From assembly GCA_946902875.1 (NCBI GenBank), contig OX336348.1, forward strand, positions 13,479,741 through 13,543,740: DNA of 64,000 nucleotides, in the 5' to 3' direction. Each line of letters begins with the position of its first letter. The stretch's first letter is position 1. Source of the DNA: Nematopogon swammerdamellus. Taxonomy: Eukaryota; Arthropoda; Insecta; Lepidoptera; Adelidae. Below are positions 7,565 through 17,517 of this stretch, piece by piece. The position numbers were made by a program, and so were the translations under genes. The notes beneath the pieces were generated by a model that worked only from the letters and a program-made list of their open reading frames with translations, had not been told where the DNA came from and did no database searches.

Positions 7565-7786
7565 AAAGCGAAGATCGTTCCGCGAGAACTTCATTATACC
7601 CGGAACGAAATGGTGCGGAGCCGGTCAGCTGGCGAGCCGATACAACGAGCTAGGAGGCGACCAGAAGGAAGATCGGTGTTGCCGCGCCCACGACAACTGC
7701 CCGCGTAACATACTGCCGTTTAGAAGGCGCTTCGGCGTCCTCAACGCAAGACTGTACACGGTCTCTCATTGCCGATGCGACCGGAG
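7565..7786 (+). CDS. Secreted phospholipase A2, catalytic exon A
   Basis: Exon of 222 bases: 1 leading base, 73 codons, 2 trailing (phase 2 on both sides). Acceptor TTTCAACGCACGGCAG; donor CCGGAG|GTTGGT. It encodes the group III PLA2 core: the calcium loop TKWCGAG, then ELGG, the catalytic DRCCRAHDNCP (His-Asp pair), and the HCRCDR segment with the second conserved Asp. No stop or frameshift. It starts with KRRS, so with the split Arg of the upstream exon it gives RKRR, a furin-type site placed just before the catalytic domain. Group III PLA2s are secreted, calcium-dependent enzymes that hydrolyse the sn-2 ester of phospholipids. It is about half identical to exon B and shares its phases and donor. 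Either it is an alternative exon of the same gene or it belongs to a tandem paralogue lacking its own last exon; the former fits the window better. Confidence 0.85.
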
Positions 7787-7978
7787 GTTGGTTTTTTATT
7801 TGGTAAATTTTTTTTTTGTGATTAATTTCATGTGTGGGTTAGACTTTAGATGGGACTGTTTTTTGGTTTATTGTGTTTTTATTAGTTTGGCTTTTAGTTG
7901 CGTTTTTCAAAGCTTTGGGAAGGATTTTCTTTTAAATTGTTTGTTTAATAGTATTGCACTGATTTATTCTGTTGCCCA

Positions 7979-8198
7979 ATTGGTGGTAGGCTCAAATGGT
8001 GGCCGATTGGATTGGTACCACCGTACTGGATGTATGGTGGCCGCATAGCAGCCTCTGCTCCCCTAGTCCAGTATAGCCAGCAATCTGAAAGGAGATCTCC
8101 GGTATGGCACTTACCGTTTCAGAGGTGATATTGGCATGTGATCTGGCCTCTCTGAATCAGGCACCATACCGAATTAAATACATATAAAAAAAAATTGG
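7979..8198 (+). repeat. S1 SINE, 5'-truncated
   Basis: Begins at GGTGGTAGGCTCAAATGG of the core and ends at ATACCGAATTAAATACAT plus an A-tail. More diverged than the other copies. Confidence 0.8.
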
Positions 8199-8391
8199 TT
8201 GTCTGTAAAGTCGGTTTACGGATGATAGTTTTACGTGATAACGTCATAAAGTGGTAAGACTACGCATGCCGTTTTTGTTACGTTTGTATTTCCGAAAAAA
8301 AATCTTAGGTGGTTATAAAAAAAACTAAACACCCTTAAAAAATTTTAACACCGTAACATTGCTTAAAAAAGAAAGAAAAACAAACAAAAAT

Positions 8392-8458
8392 TTGAGGGAT
8401 TCGAACCCATGGTCAAAAAATACAAATCCTACACTTTTACCACTGAGCCACGAAATCA
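8392..8458 (-). ncRNA. tRNA-like sequence (SINE head or tRNA relic)
   Basis: The minus strand reads CGTGGCTCAGTGGTAAAAGT (A box), and about 30 bases on GGGTTCGAATCCCTC (T-arm/B box) with a pairing GAGGG stem. A full cloverleaf with a normal anticodon arm is not evident, and no CCA-adjacent acceptor pairing was found. It may be an isolated tRNA-derived head. Confidence 0.4.
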
Positions 8459-8489
8459 CATAAACGACCAAACGAATATCTGATTCCCT

Positions 8490-8613
8490 TGGTTCGCTTT
8501 CGGCTTGGGCCGATTGTGCCTCTCTCTGGACGGACGGACGGACGGACGGACAGGCAGACAGACAGACAACATAGGCTTAGTAATAGGGTCCCGTACCGGA
8601 AACGGAACCCTAA
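8490..8613 (+). repeat. D element 3' part
   Basis: A GGAC/GACA microsatellite is followed by ATAGGCTTAGTAATAGGGTC and ACGGAACCCTAAA. The 5' part is replaced by unrelated sequence. Confidence 0.75.
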
Positions 8614-8907
8614 ACAACGGTGTAACAAAAGAATTATAATTTTTTTAGCTGACATTATCGATTTATTTTATATCTGAAACTATATATTATGTAGCTTTAT
8701 AATAGCTTTTGCTGAAAATGTTTTATTTAAAAAAAAAAGATTTTTACTTTCTCCACACATTTTTTGAAATACCTACTCCTGAAATATAATGGTGAAGATT
8801 TTTTTTTGCCCCAGAATGCACCAAGTGATAGAACAAAAGATTTCAGAATATGAAATACTACACGCCCAGCCTTCATGGTAACATTACATTCACACTGTTA
8901 ATATTAT
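8614..8907. other. AT-rich sequence without recognised feature
   Basis: Homopolymer A and T runs; no ORF or repeat end recognised. Confidence 0.4.
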
Positions 8908-9138
8908 ATAAGGTCTTTCAAAATTAGTTCAGAGTACGCTAAGGGGGGGTTCTGTATCATATAGGGAGTAAAACCTATATAAAATTTTATGGACCTTAAG
9001 TTTTTTTTTTATGTAGGTAAAATATTTTTTTTTATGTATTTATATAAAAAATAGGTGGTTTATTTTTATAGCCTAATCGATTCAGTTTCATAACAGTAAC
9101 AAATAGCCCCCTAGCGTACCATGAACTAATTTTGATAC
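8908..9138. mobile_element. Inverted-repeat MITE (AAGGTCTTTCA family)
   Basis: TTTCAAAATTAGTTCAGAGT and GTACGCTAAGGGGG at the left are mirrored by CCCCCTAGCGTACC and ATGAACTAATTTTGA at the right. Related TACGCTAAGGGG ends occur at 30225-30300 and 38143-38393. Confidence 0.6.
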
Positions 9139-9202
9139 ATGAGTTTACAAATATTTTTTCGAACCTTGACCCCCCCCCGAAACAAAATCCTGGGTACGGC
9201 CC

Positions 9203-15385: not shown

Positions 15386-15562
15386 ATCTCACACTTCAGG
15401 AACCCTGTCAAAATAAAATATTTGATTATTTGCATAATTTTGTAGAAGTAATGAGTGAGTGTTATAGTGTGAGAAATGAGAGCAGTCGTATACATACCCG
15501 GTATGTATATAAGCTGCTGATGTGTTGTTTATAAGCTGAACAAGCTCTTGCCAGCGGCTCCG

Positions 15563-15640
15563 CTCGACAGACAGACAGACAGACAGACAGCGTAGGCTTA
15601 GTAATAGGGTCCCGTACGACGGATACGGAACCATAACAAG
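15563..15640 (+). repeat. D element 3' end
   Basis: GACA microsatellite, CGTAGGCTTAGTAATAGGGT and GGATACGGAACCATAA. Confidence 0.75.
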
Positions 15641-15647
15641 AAAATAA

Positions 15648-16213
15648 AAAAAACCGGCAAAGTGTATTGTATTGTATTGTATATATTCTTTATTGAACAC
15701 CAATTTATAAAAATTAGGTACAACAGGCGATCTTAATGCCGCGAGGCATTCTATTCTAACTAACCTTTGGGATGTATGTGGGAGAGTAAAGTAAAGTGCG
15801 AGTCGAACTCGCGCACCGAGGGTTCCGTATCGCCATGTCATGGCTAGCGCCACTCACGCCATCTAGATGGCGTGTTATGAAATGCTTGATATTAGTTAAA
15901 TGTCATGATTAGTTAAAATGCTTCATAATCTATTCGTTAGATGGCGCGCGCGCATACACTTTTTGGTTTCTTCTATGGGAACCCCGTGATTTATTTTTTT
16001 ACTTTTCTTATTTCTATTATTATTTGTTGTTATATCGGCCATAATAAATAACACATATTCTGTGAAAATTTCAACGGGCTACCTATTACGGTTCAAGAGA
16101 TACAGCCCTCGGACAGACGGACGGACGGACAGACAGACGGACTGACGGACAGACAGACAGACGGCGTAGGCTTAGTAATAGGGTTCCGTAACGGATACGG
16201 AACCCTAAAAATC
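15648..16213 (+). repeat. D element interrupted by a LINE 3' tail
   Basis: CCGGCAAAGTG is split from GTGCGAGTCGAACTCGCG by an insert at about 15662-15788 that carries TATTGTATTG repeats, TTCTTTATTGAACACC and GCCGCGAGGCATTCTATTC. That is the reverse-oriented 3' end of a CR1-like LINE also seen at 31085-31185. The D remainder is complete to ACGGAACCCTAAAAA. Confidence 0.8.
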
Positions 16214-16629
16214 GTAACGATAATAATTTAGTTTACATAAACTTTTCGAATTACAGTCCTAATATAAAATAGCATTTTTTTCCTTTTTTCCCTCAATACT
16301 CCTAAAGACCTCTTTAAAGGAGCCACTTTTTTAAACGCCTGGCAACACCGGGCCTAACCTATTAACTGACGATGTGAGGAATTTATGGCGTGTTCCGTTT
16401 ATGGCAACCCCGGCCATATTGCACGTATATAAATCGAAGATTAATTGGTTTAATGCGAGCTGGCGGGTGGTCCTGCTACTATGAAGGACTTTTGTGAGGT
16501 CCCTTTACATTAGACAGGATTTTAGAGCTTTAAGGGCACCCGTACACGATCAATGTCATTGCCAGTAATACTGACAGTAATAATAGCCAAAAGAAGGGTA
16601 TATTTTAATTTTATTTATATTTTTTTTAT
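16214..16629. other. Sequence without recognised feature
   Basis: No ORF or repeat end of note. Confidence 0.4.
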
Positions 16630-16756
16630 CGTGGCACTTGACGAAAGATGGCCATATCCCCGGTATGACACCTACCTTATCGGAGGTGATATTGGCTGGT
16701 CGGAGCATGTGCTTTGGCCCTTCTGACTCAACCAACCATACCGGATTACATACAAA
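16630..16756 (+). repeat. S1 SINE 3' fragment
   Basis: ACCTACCTTATCGGAGGTGA, TCGGAGCATGTGCTTTGGCC, CATACCGGATTACATA plus A-tail, directly abutting a D2 copy. Confidence 0.8.
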
Positions 16757-17040
16757 AAAACCGGCCAAATGCGAGTCGGACTCGCGCACCGAGGTTTCCG
16801 TACCACAAAAAAAACATTGAGAAAAAAACACGTTTCTTGTATAGGTACGCGCCTTAGTTTTTTAATTTTTCTATTTTTCACTGTTTGTTGTTATATCCGC
16901 TATAATAACACATATTCTGTGAAAATTTCAACAGGCTACCTATTATGGTTCCAAAGGACATATTCCATTAGGACAGACAGACAGACAGACCGCGTAGGCT
17001 TAGTAAGAGGCTTCCGTACGGGATACGGAAACCTAAAATT
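16757..17040 (+). repeat. D2 element
   Basis: CCGGCCAAATGCGAGTCGGA to GGGATACGGAAACCTAAAA with GACA microsatellite. It ends about 250 bases before catalytic exon B. Confidence 0.85.
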
Positions 17041-17292
17041 TTATATAATTTTATTTAAAACAAAATGTGATTCCAAATTCAAATAAATATTTAATCGAAT
17101 GACACGTAAGTAAGAACGCTGCTTACAAGTAAAATATGTTAATTTAAGAAAGTCGGTGAAAAAAAAACAGTTTTAAACGCGTGGTGCAAAATGGTATGTT
17201 TCATTCACATAGAAGGCTCATTTTTTGTCTAAAACACTTTACAATTTATCACGTATAAAATAAAGAATAGAAATAAAATTGTCACAACACAG

Positions 17293-17517
17293 AAGAAAGC
17301 GCGATCTGATGGATTCCCTTCGCATACCTCACACGAAGTGGTGCGGGAAGGGATTCACGGCCACCACCTACGCCCAACTCGGCGGTTACTCCAAGACGGA
17401 CCGATGCTGTCGAATGCACGACCTCCGATGCCCGTTCTGGATCGGGGGGATGGAGAAAAAATACGGCGTCTTCAACTGGAGAGTGAACACATTGATGCAT
17501 TGCAGATGCGACGAAAG
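17293..17517 (+). CDS. Secreted phospholipase A2, catalytic exon B
   Basis: Exon of 225 bases: 1 leading base, 74 codons, 2 trailing (phase 2 both sides). Acceptor TTGTCACAACACAG; donor CGAAAG|GTTGGA. It encodes RKRD, then TKWCGKG (calcium loop), QLGG, the catalytic DRCCRMHD with the His-Asp pair, RCPFWIGGM, YGVFNWRVNT and HCRCDE with the second catalytic Asp. All residues expected of an active group III PLA2 are present. It carries one residue more than exon A between HD and CP. The split Arg from the upstream exon gives RRKR before Asp, a furin-type maturation site. The split final codon (AG|G) joins the last exon so that CRCDER runs into FRACL, the usual spacing of the family. Joined to the first and last exons it gives a complete catalytic domain. 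Confidence 0.9.

Follow-up and report, generated by a model that had tools for sequence, protein, structure and literature searches.

We analysed a stretch of 64,000 nucleotides from the genome of Nematopogon swammerdamellus (hereafter the window; G000:C16:13479741-13543740 in a 699-Mb assembly), which holds four coding exons of what is, judged by sequence, an insect group III secreted phospholipase A2 (sPLA2, or PLA2 for the enzyme in general) gene orthologous to genes that some annotations name GIIIspla2. All four exons are on the forward strand. Exon U (3971..4396, 426 bases) encodes the end of a shared pro-region and lies between an AG acceptor and a GTAACT donor. Exons A (7565..7786, 222 bases) and B (17293..17517, 225 bases) are the first and second of two catalytic cassettes that we regard as alternatives. 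Exon C (58687..58879, 193 bases), common to all products, ends the coding sequence; it encodes four cysteines and carries the stop codon. The junctions of U, A, B and C have AG acceptors and GT donors in the window sequence and are in phase 2 throughout, including both ends of U, A and B. An earlier reading made without database searches (the sequence-only reading) had given the same coordinates and phases for all four, and the same lengths and donors for A and B.

In the 90 kb upstream of the window, we found one further coding exon, E1 (G000:C16:13407193-13407986; L010:7453-8246). It has a Met start, a hydrophobic stretch and 264 codons plus two bases, followed by a phase-2 donor (AATAG|GTAAGA). 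E1 sits 76 kb upstream of U, and the gene E1-U-A-B-C spans about 131 kb from Met to stop. The split codons of U are AG|T with E1 and AG|A with either A or B. U+A+C, U+B+C and U+A+B+C reach the same stop in frame, as the sequence-only reading had predicted, and U+C does so as well. With E1 included, all of the products are open, at 544 amino acids (A), 545 (B), 619 (A+B) and 470 (neither cassette).

Both A and B carry a complete group III PLA2 core, from the calcium loop through HCRCD. The Pfam family PF05826 (Phospholip_A2_2) matched A with E 1.2e-25 (89.9 bits), B with E 3.2e-20 (72.5 bits) and exon C with E 1e-7 (32.4 bits, profile positions 66-96), all above the curated cut-off of 22 bits; in exon U, Pfam found nothing above cut-off. 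The motifs of core A are WCGAG, CCRAHD and HCRCD, with one residue between the catalytic His-Asp and the next cysteine (HD-x-C), and those of core B are WCGKG, CCRMHD and HCRCD, with two residues there (HD-xx-C). The calcium loop WCGxG, CCRxHD and HCxCD are thus present in both cores, which are 48% identical, in line with the estimate of about half. Because the motif residues are intact in A and B, we expect both cores to be active in this species. Two cysteines of exon C would presumably bridge to the catalytic core, if we assume the disulfides of the bee enzyme.

Between A and B we looked for additional first or last exons with a PF05826 profile search of the assembly, tblastn on the window and a search of the assembly with the relative P0085, and none was found, which agrees with what had been seen from the sequence. 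At the locus, the profile search returned A, B and C only. The P0085 search, which scores best candidates only, returned a single E1, U, A, B and C there, together with weaker paralogues on contigs C15, C25 and C26. When we compared six lepidopteran or lepidopteran-like relatives with the window by tblastn (E <= 1), we obtained U, A, B and C and two matches elsewhere (E 0.26 and 0.49) that look like chance. U was matched with lepidopteran relatives (for example P0001, 58% identity, E 6e-44), and exon C was 81-84% identical to the six. A lost second C exon next to A was also considered and rejected, as the profile, tblastn and P0085 searches showed no remnant of one. The other PF05826 matches in the assembly (C15:17796615-17796899, where the domain lies within a single open frame; C25:11115549-11135206; C26:15623641-15631275) are probably other group III PLA2 genes.

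As relatives we took 177 distinct proteins from three protein searches (the best 120 of 378, the best 120 of 204 and 28 of 28 matches), and what follows on relatives refers to the matches listed there. The spacing after the catalytic His-Asp (HD-x-C for A, HD-xx-C for B) sorts all 177: 57 have A only, 70 have B only and 50 have A then B. None has B then A, so the exon order of the window holds in the relatives. In the two-core proteins the two CCxxHD motifs are typically 74 residues apart (45 of 49).

At 27 loci, two or more of the listed entries share a gene name or belong to a named isoform series; 24 of these loci are from Lepidoptera, two from beetles and one from a mosquito. Pairs whose members have no gene name in common, for example in Leptosia and Chrysodeixis, were left out, and the clustering at 90% identity and the partial lists of matches hide further isoforms. 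Fourteen loci have an A form and a B form, seven have A+B and B, one has A and A+B, and five have all three (Vanessa atalanta, Pectinophora, Aricia, Maniola and Danaus). A-only and B-only forms therefore coexist at 19 of the 27. The isoforms of one locus have identical residues over the 60 shared N-terminal positions that we compared in 23 of the 27 loci; in Danaus, Nymphalis io, Bicyclus and Nicrophorus the comparison is out of register, with lengths that differ by one or two residues. Most of these isoforms are present in public listings as 'uncharacterized protein'.

Some relatives have the A-type single core as their only form among the matches listed. These are Drosophila ficusphila, Stomoxys, Haematobia, Musca autumnalis and similar higher-fly-like entries (the higher-fly or higher-fly-like A-only proteins are P0162-P0164, P0166-P0168, P0172 and P0174-P0177). 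B may have been lost in higher flies; the query of that search was the A module.

Twenty-two entries have the source label 'lgn', which we took to mean assembled sequencing runs. Their longest contigs are 1.1-11.7 kb, and in 19 of the 22 they are at most 2.6 kb. Twelve of these entries have A joined to C, six have B joined to C, four continue beyond the core into other sequence, and none has A+B. The B-to-C entries are all moth-like, on contigs of at most 1.9 kb. Five of the A-to-C entries lie outside the higher flies: the Galleria-like P0035, the Hermetia-like P0152, and mosquito-like P0165, P0154 and P0159. On 1,824 bases, P0035 encodes 414 amino acids that start at Met and reach the expected C-terminus; since the gene spans tens of kilobases, this is not genomic and must come from a spliced transcript or a retrocopy. 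P0152 has 13 members and 1,835 bases, and the listed matches for Hermetia include an A+B model (P0093). When we searched with the A+B stretch alone, two-core proteins ranked first and none of those among the best 120 of 204 was an 'lgn' entry. We believe that one cassette at a time is probably the rule.

A and B resemble a mutually exclusive pair in several ways: they are neighbouring homologous exons of similar length (222 and 225 bases) and equal phase, at 48% identity, and in relatives either exon is found alone (19 of 27 loci; among the 'lgn' proteins, 12 A-C, five of them outside the higher flies, and six B-C). The sequence-only reading had suggested that they are mutually exclusive or tandemly included cassettes of one gene. 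That they belong to a single gene and that A-only and B-only forms are listed for relatives stands, and in the relatives' proteins we met none of the findings that the sequence-only reading had named as counting against it. Exclusion may not be strict, because an A+B isoform is among the matches listed at 13 of the 27 loci, though in none of the 22 'lgn' entries.

The duplication is old. Two-core A-then-B proteins are found in nine insect orders: Lepidoptera, Coleoptera, Diptera, Siphonaptera (Ctenocephalides), Hymenoptera (Neodiprion), Hemiptera (Homalodisca), Thysanoptera (Frankliniella), Orthoptera (Gryllus) and Phasmatodea (Timema), with some of the models partial. In a tree of 56 modules, one branch splits 30 A modules from 26 B modules (support 100/98, 99% of bootstraps), and an earlier tree of 25 A and 25 B modules had the same split (99/95). 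The window's A and B group with the A and B modules of other insects, respectively, and its B falls with the B modules of Lepidoptera (7 rows, 100/98). The tree is built on 64 columns, is read as unrooted, and its inner order is poorly resolved. From the split between A and B we conclude that there was one duplication before the sampled orders parted and not repeated ones; as far as sequences tell, the exon duplication is old and single. We tried to root the tree with two paralogues from the same genome and dropped this, as they had long branches and one row holds intron-encoded letters. The three paralogue cores that we read have the HD-x-C spacing as in A, and this points to the longer spacing of B as the derived one.

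Our reading is that this group III sPLA2 gene has kept an anciently duplicated core exon as an alternative, that the two cassettes are mostly spliced in singly, and that each is released by a convertase; we put the probability of all this together at about 80%. In most cases the primary transcript E1-U-A-B-C would yield E1-U-A-C or E1-U-B-C after splicing, and occasionally E1-U-A-B-C. E1 and U would make up a long N-terminal secretion and pro-region, and a proprotein convertase would cut at R-x-K/R-R and free the mature cassette with exon C. The choice of cassette would exchange the calcium loop and the His-Asp active site, with exon C constant, and we would expect N. swammerdamellus to use both.

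Convertase-like sites are present at the start of both cassettes in the window. Cassette A begins with RKRR then Ser (7565..7574) and cassette B with RRKR then Asp (17293..17302), and in both cases the first Arg is completed by the splice AG|A. E1, U, A and B all finish with AG, and the first base of A, B and C is A or G, so any splice onto A, B or C yields an arginine. In the 49 two-core relatives, R-x-K/R-R precedes B in all 49 and A in 40, and the looser R-x-x-R precedes A in 47. Since the cleavage motif opens each cassette, the active site that is released would depend on the splice choice. U seems to belong to a pro-region that would be removed, so the mature enzymes would share exon C alone. 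The idea that the two enzymes have a common scaffold thus holds for exon C, but it needs rewording for U, which is probably cut off with the pro-region. The two enzymes might differ in their interfacial or substrate surfaces, as the sequence-only reading had proposed. From the A+B form, cleavage would yield the same B enzyme and an orphan A core without exon C. If the bee disulfides apply, the core is tied to exon C through two of its cysteines, and the lone A core would therefore have two cysteines without partners. We make no claim as to whether the isolated A core folds, because the cores have low confidence in the structure models. In the relatives' models the pro-region has predicted local distance difference test (pLDDT) scores mostly of 75-97, with one block at 57-63, and the A-only model had no fold match in the PDB at E <= 0.001.

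A bolder version holds that the gene is a regulated, ancient switch between sPLA2s of differing substrates, and that the A+B form is purposeful, with the orphan A core acting as a regulator or a lipid-binding decoy. We consider this version, with all of its parts, rather doubtful.

Several observations weigh against our reading of mostly single, alternative cassettes. The isoform evidence comes wholly from relatives and none of it from N. swammerdamellus, and the relatives' isoforms are mostly automatic gene models. Outside Lepidoptera and Diptera there is no A-only form among the matches listed, and both beetle loci have A+B and B forms. Of the 12 A-to-C 'lgn' entries, seven are higher-fly-like and say nothing on choice, because no B is seen there at all. 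The zero count of A+B among the 'lgn' entries may reflect assemblers that collapse variants or drop the rarer path, and the list from the A+B-stretch search misses at least four two-core proteins that other searches gave (P0068, P0111, P0120 and P0153). In AlphaFold models of A+B and A-only relatives, the cores have pLDDT scores of about 30-65. Finally, the two paralogues that we used as outgroups fell inside the A side, beside the window's A (96/82), on long branches.

If A and B were always spliced in together, the product would be an obligate two-core protein and the single-core forms would be minor or artefacts. The 50 of 177 listed relatives that have A+B, in nine orders and in constant order, are in favour of this, as is the 74-residue distance between the CCxxHD motifs in 45 of 49. 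It does not fit well with A-only and B-only forms at 19 of 27 loci, or with the short-contig entries, which have five A-to-C (outside the higher flies) and six B-to-C against no A+B. A core A beside B would also be without exon C, hence, by the bee pairing, without the two partner cysteines, and some A+B models may stem from predictors that ignore alternative exons. We think an obligate two-core protein is unlikely. If the cores belonged to two neighbouring genes, or had been brought together by an assembly join, each would need its own first and last exons. An identity of 48% and a distance of 9.5 kb between the cores would be compatible with tandem genes, but only a single E1, U and C were found at the locus, and in other species from nine orders A then B occur in one chain. 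One copy each of E1, U, A, B and C speaks strongly against two genes, and we give this reading next to no weight.

It might also be that exon A is a decaying relict or pseudo-exon and B alone is functional. A is less conserved than B and evolves faster (between-order identity 53.0% for A and 68.5% for B, with 50.9% for A against B). All 49 two-core proteins have the third glycine of the calcium loop (WCGxG) in B, and 35 of them have it in A; in the A modules of the other 14 (P0068, P0105, P0106, P0109, P0113, P0115, P0120-P0124 and P0127-P0129) it is replaced by H, S, R, Q, N or T. These 14 are from beetles, a cricket, a leafhopper, thrips and a sawfly, and none is from Lepidoptera, Diptera or the flea. 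Because A evolves faster and has lost this glycine, in those orders it may not be a normal enzyme or may have a changed role, and this too is a point against our reading. The window's A retains its motif residues, however, and neither module shows any change in the CCxxHD His and Asp or in the CxCD Asp across the 41 aligned two-core proteins (taken from the 49; eight, mostly partial, were left out). A-only forms are also listed for many moths and flies, and A is the sole form seen in higher flies. We find a relict A hard to reconcile with these observations and give it only slight weight.

The donors of A (GAG|GTTGGT, intron bases 7787..7792) and B (AAG|GTTGGA, 17518..17523) share GTTGG and are near-identical, as had been noted. 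They match the consensus CAG|GTAAGT at 6/9 and 5/9 positions, and the donors of E1 and U match at 7/9; such donors of A and B might suit regulated exons. We considered two ways in which exclusion could be enforced and rejected both. Double inclusion causes no frame shift, because the lengths of A and B are both multiples of three, so a broken frame is not the enforcer. RNA pairing around A was rejected because the strong complementary stretches look like copies of a dispersed repeat, and such stretches are a poor explanation for a choice that has persisted across orders. With a 9.5-kb intron separating A from B, crowding of the two exons cannot enforce exclusion either.

The inverted copies that flank exon A are 4746-5045 against 8547-8596, 11833-11959, 15570-15865, 16048-16130 and 16863-17020, with up to 127 nt at 87% complementary and 83 nt at 94%, and they look like one dispersed repeat. 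If they paired they would loop out A, which could favour skipping or a circular RNA. There is a foldback element in the U-A intron (5686-6084), with arms of 58 and 90 nt that are 91-92% complementary. Arrays of a 20-base motif, in higher units of 60 and 80 bases, lie at 17603-17902 and 18893-19217 and start 86 bases past exon B. Within the B-C intron there are three near-perfect tandem arrays, at 27695-28213 (57 b x 9.1), 33798-34266 (104 b x 4.5) and 37580-38118 (64 b x 8.4), with 99-100% matches. The same intron has an open frame of 551 residues on the reverse strand (40199-41854) that matches RVT_1 at E 1.4e-35 and is probably a retrotransposon piece, and a run of 200 N at about 54620-54860, either an assembly gap or a withheld stretch. 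Rfam gave no matches in the window.

Eicosanoid signalling in insect immunity relies on PLA2. What we describe is a widely conserved gene able to make two enzymes while its promoter, pro-region and C-terminal part are retained, and it is another gene besides the single secreted PLA2 that one moth is reported to have (PMC11253937). Knockdowns aimed at the shared exons would strike two enzymes together. The natural pairs from one gene make the contribution of the core to substrate choice directly testable, and the alternative enzyme core is apparently as old as the main insect orders.

We found no description of duplicated cassette exons or of isoforms in group III PLA2 in the open-licence literature (including the parts seen of PMC12535799, PMC12758981 and PMC11059263), and the sequence-only reading had known of no such case either. 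The portions seen of two papers that name GIIIspla2 (PMC7642934, PMC11811501) have nothing on these exons. That name is on Euwallacea and Ochlerotatus entries and on a Drosophila gene (PMC7642934), and the family PF05826 is common to them and our gene. The Drosophila gene is likened to ours by family. The relatives from Diptera and Coleoptera among the matches listed have the same A and B modules as the window. Another moth group III sPLA2, Se-sPLA2 of Spodoptera exigua, has 194 amino acids and four exons of 84-186 bp and is reported as the unique sPLA2 there (PMC11253937 and PMC6375067). Judged by sizes alone, from what those sources give, it is a different gene from the present one, which has relatives in other noctuids among the best 120 of 378 matches.

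Mammalian PLA2G3 (sPLA2-III) has a central group III domain between large extra domains and is processed to a domain-only enzyme (PMC7603386). It is like the present gene in its extra domains and, if ours is cut as proposed, in its processing, and unlike it in having one catalytic core, with no alternative core exon mentioned in the part of that source we saw. Core B with exon C matched only 1poc/8pkc and 8pih in the PDB at E <= 0.001, with E of about 1e-23; 1poc is bee venom PLA2. The bee protein is a venom enzyme with a single core and is not known to have a long pro-region like E1+U. Homologous duplicated exons are chosen in splicing in pyruvate kinase M1/M2 and in TrpA1. What appears new here, in a family for which we found no such report, is that alternative duplicated exons exchange a whole active site together with its own putative processing signal. 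Unlike in pyruvate kinase M1/M2 and TrpA1, each exon of this gene brings a complete active site and a convertase-like site of its own, and the frame is kept when both are included.

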